A stretch of 46,228 nt of DNA from Desulfobaccales bacterium (lineage in GTDB: Bacteria; Desulfobacterota; Desulfobaccia; Desulfobaccales; 0-14-0-80-60-11). The stretch spans positions 1-46,228 of the forward strand of contig JBBFLF010000019.1 of the NCBI GenBank assembly GCA_037481655.1, given 5' to 3'. This document shows, in pieces, positions 23,527 through 40,235 of the stretch. The notes beneath the pieces were generated by a model that was not told where the DNA came from, made no database searches, and was given only the letters and a program-made list of their open reading frames with translations. Each line of letters starts with the position of its first letter. Positions within the stretch are counted from its first letter, which is position 1. The position numbers were made by a program, and so were the translations under genes.

Positions 23527-23605
23527 GCCCCCGTAGCTCAGAAATGGACAGAGCAACGGATTCCTAATCCGTGTGTCCCGGGTTCGAATCCCGGCGGGGG
23601 CACCA
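23527..23605 (+). tRNA. tRNA-Arg (anticodon CCU)
   Basis: Complete cloverleaf. The acceptor GCCCCCG pairs with CGGGGGC, followed by discriminator A and an encoded CCA. The D stem is GCTC/GAGC. The anticodon arm ACGGA-TTCCTAA-TCCGT gives CCU, which reads AGG. The T arm is CCGGG-TTCGAAT-CCCGG. AGG is a rare Arg codon in such GC-rich genomes. tRNA genes of this type are frequent integration sites, but I see no integrase or 3'-end duplication nearby. Confidence 0.97.
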
Positions 23606-23901
23606 GATATTAGAGAACCTCCCCGGCCCTGCCCGGCGAGGGTCATCCCTGCCGCATCCGGCTCAGGGAGCATGTGGCACGACATCACCCTTGCCCCCGA
23701 AAGGGGCGGCGAGGTGGATCAGCCGGGAGAAACCCGGGCAAGGTGTATATCGGCGGCCCGGTCGCCTGCCCTGGCAGGTGAGGGTCCACTGGTAAGAAAG
23801 CAAAAAAGGGGGCCGACATCGTTCCCCCACGTTGGCTGACCTCCTCCCCCCGTCGCCGGGGCCTGCTGGCCGGGCTGGCGGTCCTGGCTATCCTGGCCGT
23901 C
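23606..23901. other. intergenic region, including the probable true start of the CHASE2 cyclase
   Basis: No independent gene. The reading frame of the cyclase is open from the TGA at 23779 onward and encodes a transmembrane helix before the first standard start (TTG 23902); see that gene. No terminator was recognised after the tRNA. Confidence 0.5.
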
Positions 23902-25809
23902 TTGATTCTCTCCGGGGCCGGCCGCTCCCTGGAGGACCAGACCCTGGATCTGGCCTTGCGCCTGCGCCCCCAGCGCCCGCCCCCTCCTGACCTCCTCATC
24001 GTGGGCCTCGACGAGCCCTCCTTTAAGGAGCTCCACCATCCCTGGCCCTGGCCGCGGCGGCTGCACACCACCCTGGTGGAGCGGCTGACAGAGCTGGGCG
24101 CCCGCCTCATCATCTTTGACGTGCTCTTTGCCGAGGAAACCTCCCCGGAAGACGACGCCCTCCTGGCGGCGGCACTGCACCGGGCCGGCAATGTTCTTTT
24201 GGGGCAGGCCCTAGAGGTGGCCCAGGACCCCCGCTTTGCCCGGCGCATGCTCATCGAGCCCTTACCGGCACTCCGCCAGGCTGCCTGCGGCGTGGGACTG
24301 ATGGCCTTGACCCCTGATCCCGACGGCGTGGTGCGCCGCTTTCGCCTGCGTCTGGGGGGAGAGCCGACTTTGGCGGCGGTGGCGGCGGCACGGCTGGGGG
24401 TGAGTCTGCCCCCGGAGCTGACGGGACTCATTGATTTTGTCGGTCCCCCGCGCAGCCTTGACACCGTGTCCTATTACCAGGTGCTGAACTCCCGACACCC
24501 CTTTCCGGAAGCTTTAGCGCGGGGCCGCATGGTGCTGATCGGCAGGATGCTGGAGGCCTCGGCCACCCCTCAGGCCCAGGCGGACGCCTTCCTTACGCCT
24601 TTCTACGCCGGCGACGGCCGCCTGATGTCCGGGGTGGAGGTGCATGCCCATATCCTCCACACGCTCCTGACCGGCGGCTGGGGGAGGGAAGCCGGGCCGG
24701 GGATGCGTGTGGGAGCTGCCGCTTTGCTCCTTCTGCTGGCCGTCATCTTTCGCGGCCGCCCCGGCGTGACTGGCGCCTTGCTCACCTTCTTTTTGCTCAC
24801 TGCCCTGGCCCTGGCGGTATCCTTCCTCCTTTTTGTGCGGTGGCGCTTCTGGCTGCCGCCGGTCCTGCCGGTGGCCGGTCTGGTGGCGTGGCAGGTGGGC
24901 CTCCTAACCTGGGATTACCTCAGGGAGTACCGGGAGAAACGCTGGCTCAGGCAGGCCTTCAGCCGCTATGTGTCGCCAGCGGTGGTGGCGGAGCTGGTGG
25001 CCCATCCGGAGGGCTTGAAACTGGGCGGGGAGGAGCTGGAAGTCACGGTGCTCTTCGCCGATCTGGCCGGATTCACCGGACTTTCCGAAACCCTGGGCCC
25101 CGAGGAGCTGGTCAGCCTGCTGAACCGCTATTTCAGCATCCTGACCGACATCATCCAGGCCCGGCGGGGCACGGTGGACAAGTTCATCGGCGATGCGGTG
25201 ATGGCGGTCTGGGGGGCGCCGCTCCCTTTGGCCGACCACGCCGCGTTGGCCTGCCACGCCGCCCTGGAAATCAAAGCGGCCATCGCCCAGGAGCTGGCAG
25301 AGGTGCCAGCGCGGCCCCTCCCCCCGCTGACGGTGCGCCTAGGCGTCCACTCCGGCACGGTATTGGCCGGCAATGTGGGGTCAGTGGAGCGCTTCAACTA
25401 TACGGTGATGGGGGATACGGTCAATCTCGCCTCCCGTCTGGAAGGGGTGAACAAGCACTACGGCACTGCCATCCTCATCAGCGAGGCCACCTTCCGACAG
25501 GTGCAGGGGATGTTCATGGTCCGGGAACTGGACCGCCTCCGGGTCAAGGGCCGCCGGCAGCCGGTGACCGTCTATGAGCTGTTGGGGCCCGGCGAGCAGG
25601 GCACTTCTGCCTGGCTTACGGCCTTTCAGGCAGGTCTCATGGCCTACCGGGCCCGGGACTGGGCGGAAGCCAGTCGCCGGTTTGAGGAGGTGCTGCGCCA
25701 GAAGCCGAAGGACCCGCCGGCCCGCCTTTTCCTGCACCGCTGTCGGGCCTTCCAAGTGGAGCCGCCGCCCCCGGAGTGGGACGGCCTCTTGGTGCTGGAG
25801 GAAAAATGA
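23902..25809 (+). CDS. CHASE2-domain class III adenylate cyclase
   Basis: At least 635 residues. An extracytoplasmic CHASE2 sensor (about 1-250; LDLALRLRPQRPPPPDLLIVGLDEPSF, IIFDVLFAEE) is followed by three transmembrane helices (about 270-335) and a class III cyclase domain (about 375-545). Both metal-binding Asp are present (VLFADLAGFTG and KFIGDAVMAVWGAP), as are the transition-state residues in MGDTVNLASRLEG. Lys in DKFIGD favours ATP, so cAMP is the likely product. A helical TPR-like tail closes the protein. CHASE2 proteins normally begin with a membrane helix; here that helix (GLLAGLAVLAILAVLI) lies upstream of TTG 23902. The true start is probably earlier, possibly ATC 23818, which has AGGGGG five nt upstream. 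It is convergent with the FecR-TPR-barrel gene. Confidence 0.9.
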   Translation: MILSGAGRSLEDQTLDLALRLRPQRPPPPDLLIVGLDEPSFKELHHPWPWPRRLHTTLVERLTELGARLIIFDVLFAEETSPEDDALLAAALHRAGNVLLGQALEVAQDPRFARRMLIEPLPALRQAACGVGLMALTPDPDGVVRRFRLRLGGEPTLAAVAAARLGVSLPPELTGLIDFVGPPRSLDTVSYYQVLNSRHPFPEALARGRMVLIGRMLEASATPQAQADAFLTPFYAGDGRLMSGVEVHAHILHTLLTGGWGREAGPGMRVGAAALLLLLAVIFRGRPGVTGALLTFFLLTALALAVSFLLFVRWRFWLPPVLPVAGLVAWQVGLLTWDYLREYREKRWLRQAFSRYVSPAVVAELVAHPEGLKLGGEELEVTVLFADLAGFTGLSETLGPEELVSLLNRYFSILTDIIQARRGTVDKFIGDAVMAVWGAPLPLADHAALACHAALEIKAAIAQELAEVPARPLPPLTVRLGVHSGTVLAGNVGSVERFNYTVMGDTVNLASRLEGVNKHYGTAILISEATFRQVQGMFMVRELDRLRVKGRRQPVTVYELLGPGEQGTSAWLTAFQAGLMAYRARDWAEASRRFEEVLRQKPKDPPARLFLHRCRAFQVEPPPPEWDGLLVLEEK

Positions 25810-25961: not shown

Positions 25962-28900
25962 TTAAAAATAAAACGCCAGCTTGAAGAGCAGCCGCCGGGC
26001 CGGGAACAGGGCGTCCAGGGTAACGAACTCCTTCTGGAAATAGAAGTGCCGGTCGAAGAGGTTGGTGACCTCCAGCGCGGCCAGACCCCGCTTGCCCGGA
26101 AATTCATAGCCCAGCCGCACATCCACCAGCCCGAAGAGGTTATCCCCCCGGTGGGTCAGGTCCTGGCGCACCAAAAAGGCCCGGAGGAAGCCTTGGAAGC
26201 CGGAGCGGTGCAGGAAGGAGAGCTGGGCAAAGCCGGTGAACTCGGAAAAGTCGTGGCCGCTGGCAAAGGTGGGATCGAACTTCTTGCCGCTGACCCCCAG
26301 CGCCAGGCCCCAGGAGGGGCTGAGGATGCGGTTGACGGTGAAACTCGCGGCGTAGCGCTTCCAGCCCCACCATACCCGGTTCTCCTTCAGGTCGCCGTCC
26401 GCCAGGGAGACCTCGTATTGGGGCGTGGCGATGCGGCCGGCGTCCAGACGCAGCACCGAGAAGGTCTGGGCGTCCCACTGGGCCTCCCAGGCCAGGCCTG
26501 CTTGGCGCACCTCGGAGCCGTCATCCACATTGATGAGGGTCGGGAAGCCGGCGGTCTCCGATGGGGCCAGCAAAGGCGCCAGCAGGCCGTGGGTGTTGAG
26601 GGCCCGCTGCACCGCCAGGCGGAGGGTGTGCTGGGCGGTGAGCTGGTAATTCAGCCCGAACCGGGGGCTGATGCGGGAGGTGAACACCGGCTGGGCAAAG
26701 CCGGAGCGGGGGGTGCGGGCCTCATCATAAAAAAGTCCCGCTTCCAGCAAGAGCTGCGGGGTTAGGCGCCAGTAATCCAGGAGGTAGAGGCTGAAGGAGC
26801 GCTGGGGAGGCCGGAAATGGTCCAGAAGGGTGAGGGAGAGGACCGGGCTGTCATAAATGGAAAACAGCAGATTTTCCCGCCGATGGTATTTCAGGCGACC
26901 GGAGAAGTAATCCACCCCGGCGATGAAGGTGTGGCTCCCCAGCTTGAGGTGCTGCTGAAACTGGAGGTTGTGAAACTCCAGGTCGTTTTCCCGGTTGAGA
27001 GTGCTGGTGAGATCAACAGGCAGGCCGCCCACCGAAAAAATCTGGGGGAAGAAGGTCCGGTCCCTCAGATGCCAGTCGTTTTTGGCATAAGAGAAATAGC
27101 CCAAAAACGTGGCCTCCGGCGTGAAGCGGTGCACGTAGCCCGCCTCAGAGACCCGGGTACGGAAGACCTGCCGCAGGTCGGGGGCGTTCCTGAAGCTGTA
27201 ATCATGGAGATTGGTCACGTCCCCGGCCTCGCTCCGGGCCAGGGTGACCCCGCCCATCAGGGACTGGCGCACGGTGGGCTCCCATTTCACCAAGCCGGTG
27301 AACACGGCAAAATCCCGGTCGCCATTACGGGCCCGGAAGCCGTCATCCTCCTGGTAGCCGCCGGAGATATCGAAGGCCAGCCCCGGCACGCCGCCATACA
27401 CCTCCAGGGCGTGATCCTGGATGGCCCGGCCGTGGCCCCAGGTGCCCACCCCGCCTTGGAGCTGCACCCGGGCATAGGGCATCTCAAACATGGGGGTATA
27501 ATCGTTGTAAAGGGTAAAGGTGTTCTGGTTGGCCGGGGACAAAAGCCGGTAGAGGAGCAGCTCCGAGGCAGCGGAGGCCAGCCGCTGCCGGGTGCCCTGA
27601 TAGGCGCCGGCCAGAAAAAGGTGGGCCGAGCCGGTGAGGTAGTCCTGCTTCACCGCAGTGACCGCCTTGCTGTAGGCCCACTCACCCAAACCCAGCTGGT
27701 TGTAGGCCCGGGCCAGGTCGAAATTGCGCACCGCCAGGTCCCGGTCAAGCATCAGGCGAGAGCGGAACACGGCCAGGTGGTCGTTGAGCTCAATAGAGCG
27801 GTTGATCTCTTGGATGGCCTCGCCGGGCCGGTTCAGGTCGGTGAGGGCGATGCCTTTGTAGAAATGGGGGGTGGGGTCCCGGGGGTCCAAGGTGGTGGCG
27901 TAGTCATACACCTCCAGGGCCTTGGCGAAGGCCCGGGTCTGGTACAGGGCCTTCCCCAGCATGGACTGATAGAGGGAGACCCGGGGTTCCAGCAACGTGG
28001 CGGTGAGCATGGCCGTCAGGCCCTGATCCAGACGGCGGTCCCGGAAATGACAGATCCCCAGGCCCAGGTGGGGTTCCCCCAGGGCCGGGTTGGCCCGGAC
28101 TGCCTGCTCAAAAAGGGTCCGGGCCCCCCGAAAATCCCGGAATGCCAGGCGCACAAAGCCCGCCAGGGTGAGGACCTCCGCTTCCTGCGGAGCCAGGCGC
28201 CGGGCCGCCTCCATGACCTGGGAGGCCTTCTCCAGATAATCCCCGCCCAGCCAGAGTTTGGCCAGGTAGAGATGGGCCGGGACGAAGCGGGGATCGGCCT
28301 TCAGGGCCTGCTGCAAATGCTCCAGGGCTGCTTGCCTTTGGAAGTGGGCGATTTCCACCAGGGCCATCGTCAGGCGGGCCAGGGGCGAGGTCGGGGCTTG
28401 GCTGAGGGCCTGCTCGGCCTCCCGGCGGGCCGCGGCCTTGCGATTCTGCACCAGCCACATCTGGGCCAGCAAAGGCCGGGCCAGGGTAAGCTCCGGGGCC
28501 AGGCGCAGGGCTTCCTCAAGACAGGCCTGGGCCTCCGGCACCTTGGCCACCTGCAGGGCGAAAAAGCCCTCCATGGCCAGAAGCAGGGGATTTTTGGGGT
28601 CCTGGCGGCGGGTCGCCACCAGGAGCTCGTAGGCCCCCCGGGCATCCCCCAGGCGGTAGAGAGCCAGGGCCAAGCCAATCACCGCCCCGACGCCGGGCCG
28701 GGGCACTTTGGCCAAGACGTCTGCCGCCCCGGCGGGATTATTTTCCTGGAGATGCACCCAGCCCAGGACGGTGAGAGCCAGGGCGTGCCCGGGCTCCTGC
28801 CGGAGCAGGGCCTCGGCCGCGGCCCGGGCCTCGTCCAGACGCCCCTGATCATACAAGGCGGCAGCCTCTCCGGTGAGGCCGGCCCGGGTCAGGGGAAAAT

Positions 28901-29579
28901 CCCGATAGCTGAAGATGCCCGGATAATAAAGGGACCATTGTACTGCGTCGTCGGGGGTGAGGACTACCCGTTTGGTGGGCGCCTGGCCGGGCCGGGTAAG
29001 GCCCTCCTCGCCGGCCTGCAGGGTGAGGGAGCCGAAGGGATTGGCCAATTGCAGCCGGCCCTGGAGCAGGATGAGGGAGGTGGTGCCATCCGGGCTGACC
29101 CTCAGGCTGAACTCGGTGCCCCTTATGCCGGCGGTGACTGTGGGGGTCTCCAGCTCGAAGCGGAAGGTCTCCCGGGCGTTGCGGAGCCAGACCTCCCCTT
29201 GGGGCACCCGATACTGGCTGGCGGCGGCCTCCGCCTGGGTCGCGGGCACGATCTCGGCCCATCTAAGGCGCGGCGAGGGCAGGACGCTCCGCAATTCCAG
29301 GAGGGTGTGTTCGTGGAGCTTGAGTTGGCTTTCATCGGCCAGGAGAAGGGCGGCCCGGGAGGAGGCGCCGGTCTTGATGACGTCCCCAGCAAAGAGGGCG
29401 ATCCCCGCTTCCGGCTGTTCCCAGGCCGGGGAGGCGGCCCGCTTCACCAGGACCTCGCCCCGAAATTCGACGAGGCGGCCGGCCAGCGGCGGGCCGGCGG
29501 CGGCGACGGTTCCCAGACCTACCACCAGGCCGGCCCAGATAAGTCCGGCCACCCACAGCCACCGCCGCTTGGCCTCCAT
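25962..29579 (-). CDS. FecR-TPR-outer-membrane beta-barrel fusion protein
   Basis: 1205 residues in one frame. A signal peptide (about 1-28) leads to a FecR-type domain (about 35-205), with FRGEVLVKRA, GDVIKTGASSRAALLLADESQL and the hallmark TPTVTAGIRGTEFSL at 145-159. About ten or more TPR units follow (about 235-670), for example YLAKLWLGGDYLEKASQVME and FYKGIALTDLNRPGEAIQE. From about 700 to the end the pattern is amphipathic aromatic strands of a TonB-receptor-like barrel, with LEVTNLFDRHFYFQKEF near 1165 and the final aromatic LLFKLAFYF that the Bam machinery recognises. No plug domain or TonB box is seen, so import by the usual mechanism is doubtful. GAGG lies seven nt before ATG. It is tail-to-tail with the CHASE2 cyclase. 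Role: perhaps an outer-membrane scaffold or export pore for a polymer; not established. Confidence 0.88.
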   Translation of the reverse strand: MEAKRRWLWVAGLIWAGLVVGLGTVAAAGPPLAGRLVEFRGEVLVKRAASPAWEQPEAGIALFAGDVIKTGASSRAALLLADESQLKLHEHTLLELRSVLPSPRLRWAEIVPATQAEAAASQYRVPQGEVWLRNARETFRFELETPTVTAGIRGTEFSLRVSPDGTTSLILLQGRLQLANPFGSLTLQAGEEGLTRPGQAPTKRVVLTPDDAVQWSLYYPGIFSYRDFPLTRAGLTGEAAALYDQGRLDEARAAAEALLRQEPGHALALTVLGWVHLQENNPAGAADVLAKVPRPGVGAVIGLALALYRLGDARGAYELLVATRRQDPKNPLLLAMEGFFALQVAKVPEAQACLEEALRLAPELTLARPLLAQMWLVQNRKAAARREAEQALSQAPTSPLARLTMALVEIAHFQRQAALEHLQQALKADPRFVPAHLYLAKLWLGGDYLEKASQVMEAARRLAPQEAEVLTLAGFVRLAFRDFRGARTLFEQAVRANPALGEPHLGLGICHFRDRRLDQGLTAMLTATLLEPRVSLYQSMLGKALYQTRAFAKALEVYDYATTLDPRDPTPHFYKGIALTDLNRPGEAIQEINRSIELNDHLAVFRSRLMLDRDLAVRNFDLARAYNQLGLGEWAYSKAVTAVKQDYLTGSAHLFLAGAYQGTRQRLASAASELLLYRLLSPANQNTFTLYNDYTPMFEMPYARVQLQGGVGTWGHGRAIQDHALEVYGGVPGLAFDISGGYQEDDGFRARNGDRDFAVFTGLVKWEPTVRQSLMGGVTLARSEAGDVTNLHDYSFRNAPDLRQVFRTRVSEAGYVHRFTPEATFLGYFSYAKNDWHLRDRTFFPQIFSVGGLPVDLTSTLNRENDLEFHNLQFQQHLKLGSHTFIAGVDYFSGRLKYHRRENLLFSIYDSPVLSLTLLDHFRPPQRSFSLYLLDYWRLTPQLLLEAGLFYDEARTPRSGFAQPVFTSRISPRFGLNYQLTAQHTLRLAVQRALNTHGLLAPLLAPSETAGFPTLINVDDGSEVRQAGLAWEAQWDAQTFSVLRLDAGRIATPQYEVSLADGDLKENRVWWGWKRYAASFTVNRILSPSWGLALGVSGKKFDPTFASGHDFSEFTGFAQLSFLHRSGFQGFLRAFLVRQDLTHRGDNLFGLVDVRLGYEFPGKRGLAALEVTNLFDRHFYFQKEFVTLDALFPARRLLFKLAFYF

Positions 29580-31806: not shown

Positions 31807-31809
31807 AGG

Positions 31810-31838
31810 TGGCACCAGAAAAACGGGTGGCGTATAAT
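31810..31838 (+). promoter_or_regulatory. sigma-70-type promoter candidate of the c-haem kinase operon
   Basis: TGGCAC, 17 nt, TATAAT. The -10 is perfect and the -35 is weak. The start near 31845 leaves a leader of about 175 nt. Confidence 0.45.
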
Positions 31839-32021
31839 GCAGGCAGGTCAGCAGCAGGGGTAGGGGGTCAGGAGGCCCCCTCTTCTACACCCTCTTCCCT
31901 TCACAGTAGGATCAATGTGGGGAGGCGGGCGGCCCCGGTCTTCCGCTCCCTGCCTCAGAAATCACGCCCGCTACCCCCTGGTGGCGGCCGGGCGGCCCCG
32001 AGGTCGCCGTCAGGAGCTCCC

Positions 32022-34559
32022 ATGTCTGAGCTTCCCCTCCCGGACGCGGTGCCGCCGCGGTCATCCCCCTCCTTCGGCCTGCAGAAGAAATTCCTGGTGG
32101 GCGTCGGTTTCCTGTTCCTCAGCTTCTGCATCCTCCTGGCCTGGCTCATCTACCGCCACGAGAGGAACCTCCTGGAGGAGGCGGCTTACGAGAAGGCGGA
32201 AATGGTGCTGGCCGCGGCCGAGGCGAGCCGGCACTACATCCAGGAGGTGCTGCGGCCCAAGATGTTTGAGGTGGTGGGCAAAGACGGCTTTGTCCTGGAG
32301 GCCATGTCCACCTCCTTTGTCAGCCGGGCGGTCATGGACCGCTTCCGCCACACCCTGCCGGACTACCAATACCGCCGGGTGGCCACCAATGCCCGCAATC
32401 CGGCCTATGCCCCCCGGCCGGTGGAGCAGGGCCTGATCGAGTTTTTCGCCGCCCACCCCCAGGAGAAGAGCTGGCAGGGCCTGGTGGAGCTCCACGGCCA
32501 GGCCCATTTCCTTTATGCCCGGCCGGTCTTCTTCGACCGCTCCTGCCTGCATTGCCACGGCGACCCCAAAGATGCGCCTGCCGCCCTGGTGGAGCGCTAC
32601 GGCCGGGAGCGGGGCTTCGGCCACAGGGAGGGGGAGATTGCCGGCATCAGCGCGGTGACCATCCCGGTGGAGGTGGCCCTGGCCGCCATCCAGGGCCGGG
32701 CCTTTGGAGTCTTCGGCCTCAGCCTCTTTGTCCTCTCCCTTTTGTTTGTGGGCATCAATTTCTTCTTCAACCGGGTGGTGGTGCACAACCTGCGGGATCT
32801 TCTGAATATCTTCCGGGTGGGGCTGAGGGATGACAAAGAACTGGAGCTCCTCAGCGAAGCCCAGGCCAAGGACGAGCTGGGCGAGCTCACCGTCGCCGCC
32901 CAGGCGCTGGTGGGGCATCTGGGGGATACCCGGAGGCAGTTGGAGGAGTATGCCCACAACCTGGAGGGCATGGTCAAAAGCCGCACCGAGGCCCTGGAGA
33001 CGTCCCGGCGGGCCCTGCAGACCCAGGTGGCGGAACGCAACCGGGAGCTGAAAACCCTCACCACCATCGCCGAGCTGGTGACCCAGGCCGGCAGCATCCG
33101 GGAGATCTTCCCCCGCGTGCTCATCCACACCCTGGCCCTGATCCCGGCCCGGGGGGCGGCCCTGTATCTGCTGCAGGACCACCCGGCCCGCCTGGAGCTG
33201 ATGTGCCAGGAGAACGCCGCCGGCCTTTTGCCCCGCCTGCTCTTAGAGGGAGACGACCCCACACCCGCCGCCGGTGACGCGGCCCGGGAGCTGGCCGAGT
33301 CCTTGCGGGCCGCGGTCTCGGGCCGCATGAGCTTTTTTTCCTGCCCGCACCAAGGCGACAGCTGCCTCAACACGCCGTTGCTCTGCCGCGGCCGGGTTCT
33401 GGGGGTGATGACCTTCGTGGAGGTGGTGTTCACCGAGCTCACCCCGGAGCGCCGGGAGCTGCTGCAGGCCATCGGGCATCAGATCGGCGTCACCATCGAG
33501 AGCCTTCAGAGCCTCACCAGCCTGGCCCAGAGCAAGGAGCTCCTGCAGACGGTCTTTGACGGCATCACCGATATGCTGGTGCTCCTGGACCGCCAGCTCC
33601 GGGTCAAGATGGTGAACCGGGCCTATCTGGATTATTTCGGCCTGCGCCTGGAGGACATCCTGGAGCAGCCCTGCCGTCTGACCCAGCCCGGCAATTCTGC
33701 CGATCTTCTGGCCCACCGCCAGCCCGTGACCGCGGAGATGGACGGGCCCGAGGGGCGCCGGCTTCTAGTGCATACCTACCCTCTCCTGGATGAGCGGGGC
33801 GAGGTCACCGGTCTGGTGCGCTACGCCAAGGACGTCACCGCCCAGAAGCAGGTGGAGGAGCGCATCCGGCAGACGGAGAAACTGGCGGCCCTGGGACAGC
33901 TGGCCGCCGGGGTGGCCCACGAACTGAACAACCCCCTGGGGGTGATCTTGTGCTACGCCGACCTGCTCAGGCGGGAGCTCTCCCAGGCCAAGGAGGCGGC
34001 GGCGCTTCAGGACCTGGCCACCATCGAAAAGCACGCCCGCAGCTGCCAGCGCATCGTGGCGGATCTCCTCAACTTTGCCCGGGGCCAGGAGACCGCCAAA
34101 ACGCGCACCGCCTTGAACCCCACCATCACCGAGGTGGTGCAGATGGTGGAGCACCAGTTCCGCCAGCACTGCACCATCGAGCTGGACCTGGACCCCGCCA
34201 TCCCGGAGATGGAGCTGGATGCGGACAAGATGCGCCAGGTGTATCTCAATCTGCTGATGAACGCCCGGCAGGCCCTGAAAAATACCGGGGTGATCCGCAT
34301 CAGCACCCGCTATCTCCAAGAGGCCGGGCTGGTGCAGATCACTTTCTGGGACAACGGCCGGGGCATTCCGCCGGAGATCCGCAGCAAGATCTTTGATCCC
34401 TTTTTCAGCACCAAAAAGACCGGGGAAGGCACGGGGCTGGGACTGTCGGTGAGCTACGGCATCATCAAGGAACATGGCGGGGACATCCAGGTGGAGAGCG
34501 AGCCCGGCCGCTGGACCCGGTTTACCATCACCCTGCCCGTGTCCACCTCCCGGGGATAA
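32022..34559 (+). CDS. membrane sensor histidine kinase with a c-type haem (DUF3365) sensor, GAF and PAS domains
   Basis: 845 residues. TM1 is about 22-44 and TM2 about 228-249. The periplasmic domain between them is DUF3365/Tll0287-like and carries a covalent haem motif, CLHCH at 175-179, in [17 protein letters not shown]. Such domains sense redox state or small ligands. Then follow HAMP (about 250-305), a coiled coil, GAF (about 360-500), PAS (about 525-640), HisKA ([17 protein letters not shown]) and HATPase ([35 protein letters not shown]). ATG 32022 has AGGAG five nt upstream; the frame is open for 71 further codons upstream but these look non-coding. The sigma-54 regulator starts 5 bp after its stop, so they form one transcript. 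Confidence 0.95.
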
Positions 34560-34564
34560 CGCTG

Positions 34565-35983
<1,419 letters not shown>

Positions 35984-40159: not shown

Positions 40160-40235
40160 TGGTGGAGATGAGGGGATTTGAACCCCTGACCTCCTGCATG
40201 CGAAGCAGGCGCTCTTCCAGCTGAGCTACATCCCC
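40160..40235 (-). tRNA. tRNA-Ala (anticodon CGC)
   Basis: Complete cloverleaf with encoded CCA. The acceptor GGGGATG pairs with CATCTCC and includes the G3-U70 wobble that defines alanine. The D stem is GCTC/GAGC. The anticodon arm CCTGC-TTCGCAT-GCAGG gives CGC, which reads GCG. The T arm is GGGGT-TCAAATC-CCC. Discriminator A. It has its own promoter and terminator. Confidence 0.97.

Follow-up and report, generated by a model that had tools for sequence, protein, structure and literature searches.

A probable NsrA-type outer membrane receptor encoded beside a CHASE2-adenylate cyclase gene in a Desulfobaccales bacterium

INTRODUCTION

A single open reading frame in a 46,228-nucleotide stretch of DNA from a Desulfobaccales bacterium (contig JBBFLF010000019.1; this whole stretch is referred to here as the window) appears to join a FecR domain, a TPR array, and a TonB-receptor-like barrel in one polypeptide, and the adjoining gene encodes a CHASE2 cyclase. 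The locus raises the question of whether such a barrel serves import, export, or sensing, and of whether the cyclase has any part in its function.

RESULTS AND DISCUSSION

Domain organization of the FecR-TPR-barrel protein

The open reading frame at 25962-29579 had been recognized in a sequence-only reading of the locus, and its coordinates were found to be exact, with the coding strand being the minus strand. The features of the gene and of the neighboring cyclase gene are as follows.

23902..25809, plus strand: CHASE2-adenylate/guanylate cyclase, the probable signaling partner (CHASE2, E = 2e-43; Guanylate_cyc, E = 1e-29)
25962..29579, minus strand: FecR-TPR-barrel (NsrA-like) gene, 1205 aa, ATG start, stop codon included
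29496..29579, minus strand: signal peptide, residues 1 to 28, ending VAAA (read by eye from the sequence)
29055..29384, minus strand: FecR domain (PF04773), residues 66 to 175 (Pfam, E = 6.7e-11)
27540..28868, minus strand: TPR superhelix, approximately residues 238 to 680 (Pfam TPR matches and AlphaFold helices)
27477..27539, minus strand: conserved TPR-barrel junction, residues 681 to 701, SPANQNTFTLYNDYTPMFEMP (alignment and AlphaFold model)
25965..27476, minus strand: 22-stranded TonB-receptor-type barrel, residues 702 to 1205 (PF00593, PDB profile match, AlphaFold model, and fold matches)

When the window protein was searched against Pfam, the FecR domain scored 42.9 bits (cut-off, 24), TPR families were above their cut-offs within approximately residues 238 to 610, and TonB_dep_Rec_b-barrel (PF00593) was above cut-off at residues 761 to 995 (E = 1.1e-10). 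The order that had been read from the letters, i.e., a signal peptide and then FecR, followed by about 430 residues of TPR and about 500 residues of TonB-receptor-like barrel, was therefore upheld in each of its parts. No Pfam plug family matched the protein at E ≤ 1, and no TonB box was seen by eye in the mature N terminus. The genes flanking the receptor gene, as identified with Pfam in the part of the window's open reading frames that was searched, encode the CHASE2 cyclase (PF05226) and a membrane protein that matches PF03601. Elsewhere in the window, positions 31809 to 35983 encode a Tll0287-like sensor histidine kinase with GAF and PAS domains and then a sigma-54 response regulator (Pfam), and a tRNA-Ala (CGC) gene is located at positions 40160 to 40235.

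Conservation and spread of the family

Among the 40 relatives searched, full-length or near-full-length homologues of the window protein, with 48 to 68% identity, were found in the same genus, family, and order. These homologues are open frames without internal stops, and a second copy, a paralogue, is present in the same genome at C6 (G000:C6). Because stop-free, full-length homologues at 48 to 69% identity exist in the same family and order, the open reading frame is not a product of chance. Conservation extended over the whole of a 19-homologue alignment and peaked in the final TPRs and at the TPR-barrel junction. The barrel profile was matched in 34 of the 395 genomes in a sample of the phylum, across which the FecR-TPR-barrel architecture is conserved, and the named genomes with family members include records of Desulfobacca, Solidesulfovibrio, Desulfobulbus, and Syntrophobacteraceae. 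These distribution figures cover the organism's own phylum; sequences from other orders joined the structure alignment, their flanks being too short for linkage counts. A tblastn search of two barrels against plasmids gave no match at 1e-5.

The barrel is of the TonB-receptor type and lacks a plug

An earlier AlphaFold model of the full chain, for which 19 close homologues were used, had low confidence (pLDDT, 68; pTM, 0.49), and statements about the junction are based instead on a model of residues 426 to 1205 made with an alignment of 62 homologues (pLDDT, 91.9; pTM, 0.89). This region was modeled as TPR helices, then a linker of about 21 residues, and then 22 strands, with turns and loops alternating as a TonB-receptor barrel would predict. 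Since this linker between the final TPR helix and the first strand is too short for a plug, the window protein contains no plug domain, in agreement with the sequence-only reading. Structure prediction, proposed there as a check on the barrel, thus returned 22 strands with no plug at the TPR-barrel junction, and the even strand count together with matches to TonB-receptor folds suggests that the modeled barrel is closed.

All of the structure matches listed (50 from Foldseek and 50 from VIA-align) were TonB-dependent-type outer membrane receptors or transporters, with Z scores of up to 23. When the full alignment was used for a sequence search of the PDB, TPR proteins were among the matches listed; PqqU/YncD surfaced when the barrel alignment was used alone, in a profile match that covered the barrel portion only and in which the best solved receptor scored 30.9 bits. 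The PqqU/YncD profile match, the fold matches, and the 22-strand model together support a TonB-receptor-type barrel without a plug, and the window protein is very probably located in the outer membrane.

Linkage to a CHASE2 cyclase

In the window, the cyclase gene is convergent with the receptor gene, downstream of it and 153 bp away. The first listed start of the cyclase is a TTG that falls within the first transmembrane helix, and translation therefore probably begins farther upstream; no ATG, GTG, or TTG was present in the cyclase frame upstream of that helix, and it is possible either that an in-frame CTG at 23836 serves as the start or that the normal start has been lost. The cyclase is 37% identical to CyaK of Sinorhizobium meliloti and, in the alignment of the two, keeps the metal Asp, the substrate Lys, and the Asn/Arg motifs, whose roles are known from class III cyclases. 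A tRNA-Arg (CCT) gene is found just upstream of the cyclase gene, at positions 23527 to 23605.

Across the phylum, a CHASE2 cyclase gene was found no more than 4.5 kb from the receptor gene in 34 of 52 family loci, and in 31 of these 34 linked loci the two genes were on the same strand; in the remaining three, the window's own locus and those of two of its nearest relatives, they are convergent. There are two gene orders: one part of the tree has the linked cyclase downstream of the receptor, and another has it mostly upstream. The adjacency has been kept in spite of deep divergence. The other 18 family loci had no nearby CHASE2, several of these being contig ends, and the paralogue at C6 had none within 7 kb. 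Since the organism's own genome holds five CHASE2 matches in 2.87 Mb, proximity by chance should be rare. The same genome has three cNMP-binding matches, which are possible cAMP effectors.

Some loci carry variations on this arrangement. In one (L041:3180-6787; G009), two genes for long proteins with VDxxGNVYVADT repeats separate the receptor gene from that of the CHASE2 cyclase, and in Solidesulfovibrio and a Desulfovibrio (L069, L070, and L074, at approximately 13.5 to 14.9 kb) a conserved 249-aa gene comes after the receptor-cyclase pair. A split version is found in Paracoccus aminophilus pAMI5 (L156:3401-9046), where consecutive genes encode separate TPR and FecR proteins and then a CHASE2 cyclase; the TPR protein matches SlipAM weakly, and the C terminus of the FecR protein gives a weak TbpB-like match.

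Homology to NsrA of S. meliloti

Previous studies of S. meliloti revealed that its cAMP response to an external signal, signal 1/uL2, depends on both NsrA and CyaK (PMC7529298; PMC13001267). NsrA is an outer membrane barrel protein, CyaK is an inner membrane CHASE2 cyclase, and the signal is a plant protein (PMC7529298, PMC13001267, PMC10463352); NsrA was assigned as the outer membrane signal receptor by genetics, and its barrel was placed at amino acids 600 to 1200 (PMC7529298). A candidate for NsrA was located through searches of pSymB (NC_003078) with the FecR and CHASE2 families, each of which gave a single match: FecR in an open frame of 1227 aa and CHASE2 in the next gene. The FecR protein (L161:1729-5388; 1219 aa) contains FecR and TPR, and its neighbor combines CHASE2 with a cyclase. 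Garnerone et al., in 2018, reportedly described nsrA as lying directly upstream of cyaK in S. meliloti. The candidate matches the descriptions of NsrA both in the position of the barrel and in this reported gene order.

The family profile aligned with the NsrA candidate end to end, over 1037 columns (hhalign E = 5e-36), and the barrel alone was also matched (hhalign E = 6.7e-15). The FecR region of the window protein matched the candidate by BLASTP at 3e-23, identity being low outside FecR. Moreover, the candidate scored 77.6 bits with the family barrel HMM, the best receptor in the PDB having scored 30.9 bits, and none of 200 shuffles was reported. The FecR-TPR-barrel architecture therefore has a precedent in S. 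meliloti NsrA, and the window protein adds a member to a known, little-studied NsrA-like kind, in relatives of sulfate-reducing bacteria.

Proposed function and alternatives

On the strength of the homology to NsrA and of the conserved pairing with CHASE2 cyclases, it is probable that the window gene encodes an NsrA-type outer membrane receptor and that the adjoining CHASE2-adenylate cyclase is its inner membrane partner. The barrel loops at the cell surface would meet a ligand, which is more likely to be sensed than imported because the barrel has no TonB plug. The resulting change would be passed via the periplasmic TPR arm and the FecR domain to the CHASE2 domain, which would switch the cytoplasmic class III cyclase and alter cAMP. 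For this scheme we infer the partnership of the two window proteins, a FecR/TPR-CHASE2 contact, the direction that the response takes, and cAMP as the output. Several points count against the receptor reading: the convergent orientation of the cyclase gene in the window and two of its nearest relatives, in which the two genes are not cotranscribed; the 18 family loci with no nearby CHASE2; the lack of acidic outer loops like those of NsrA; the low identity to NsrA outside FecR; and the recognition of the pSymB protein as NsrA by its fit to published descriptions.

A different function, that of an outer membrane assembly or export scaffold, had been suggested from the sequence alone. As an export porin, the protein would dock a periplasmic or inner membrane machine with its TPR arm and release a polymer or protein through an open barrel, in the manner of PgaA, BcsC, or Slam. 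A TPR array with a C-terminal barrel is the layout of these exporters, the pore has no plug, and possible cargo is offered by the PqqD-like proteins that adjoin paralogues outside the window, two of these proteins bearing apparent Sec or Tat signals. Nevertheless, no Slam or BcsC barrel family was matched at E ≤ 1 (Pfam), the PgaA model matched the TPRs only (21.7 bits; cut-off, 366.65), the barrel is of the TonB-receptor type, and the conserved partner is a cyclase. Since, in addition, the homologue NsrA is by genetics an outer membrane signal receptor, the scaffold proposal was not sustained, and we regard export as unlikely. Identity with PgaA, BcsC, or Slam was itself rejected because the barrel family models gave no match; SlipAM had none at E ≤ 1, and TPR_Slam, at 10.7 bits, was under its cut-off of 35.2.

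It would likewise be surprising if the cyclase were merely a neighbor and the barrel protein had some other task, such as passive uptake or cell envelope anchoring. The convergent genes of the window and the paralogue of the same genome with its lack of a close CHASE2 fit such an explanation, but the adjacency persists over deep divergence and in two gene orders, chance proximity is rare, and the S. meliloti homologue needs its neighboring cyclase (PMC7529298). The homology of the barrel to TonB receptors might also suggest a plug-less TonB-dependent transporter that still imports a nutrient, with FecR regulating a sigma factor. We consider this highly improbable, given that no plug family was matched, that the junction could not hold a plug, and that FecR is here joined to an outer membrane protein, on its periplasmic side, and is not an inner membrane anti-sigma factor.

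Read as a receptor, the window protein bears on NsrA as well, which has been studied so far as a receptor for a plant signal. That the receptor-cyclase pair is conserved in a phylum with many anaerobes suggests a general route from the outer membrane to cAMP, of which the plant role would be one use. Moreover, the confident model of a plug-less barrel with a TPR arm makes the control of an inner membrane cyclase by NsrA testable.

A paralogue clade with radical-SAM genes

Within the order of Desulfobacca, one clade of paralogues has radical-SAM genes beside the receptor gene, in eight loci (L031:5657-7118, which is G000:C6 in the organism's own genome, and L038, L043, L044, L045, L046, L047, and L067). 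Small PqqD-like or similarly placed genes were present in six loci of this clade, with PqqD above the Pfam cut-off in one, and what look like Sec or Tat signals stand at the start of two of the small proteins (L043:4407-4973 and L047:1890-2672). The copy at G000:C6 belongs to the radical-SAM clade, and that in the window does not. A speculative and rather doubtful possibility is that, in this clade, the radical-SAM and PqqD-like proteins make an exported, modified peptide or protein that is read by the NsrA-like receptor, forming a self-sensing circuit from the outer membrane to cAMP. If true, this would couple a receptor to a home-made ligand at the periplasm or the surface, in the paralogue clade only.

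Comparison with known systems

The window protein shares the 22-stranded barrel fold and the barrel sequence profile with TonB-dependent receptors (e.g., PqqU/YncD, PirA, and BtuB), but where these have a plug, it has FecR and TPR at the N terminus. It resembles the FecA-FecR-FecI system in combining a receptor-type outer membrane barrel with a FecR domain, probably for trans-envelope signaling; in that system, however, FecR is an inner membrane anti-sigma factor and the output is a sigma factor, whereas here FecR is fused to the barrel and the proposed output is cAMP. With PgaA, BcsC, and Slam it has in common a periplasmic TPR array followed by an outer membrane barrel, yet its barrel falls outside their families and its conserved partner is a cyclase. 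In Campylobacterota, CHASE2 cyclases are clustered with FecR outer membrane proteins, TPR proteins, and a phosphodiesterase (PMC9239204); the same set of domains thus surrounds the CHASE2 cyclase there as in the window, but the FecR outer membrane and TPR proteins are described as separate, while the window has them in one chain.

The closest likeness is to NsrA-CyaK, in which FecR, TPR, and a C-terminal barrel are likewise joined in one chain and a CHASE2-adenylate cyclase adjoins. The gene orders differ, nsrA being directly upstream of cyaK on the same strand and the window receptor and cyclase genes being convergent. The barrels differ as well, that of NsrA being strongly acidic (80 D/E and 40 K/R) and that of the window protein neutral (51 D/E and 53 K/R). 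Since the outer loops of the window protein are not acidic, the published proposal for uL2 binding need not apply to it; the acidic barrel surface is a feature of that proposal and does not define the family. The lifestyles of the hosts also differ, and the ligands of the two receptors probably do too.
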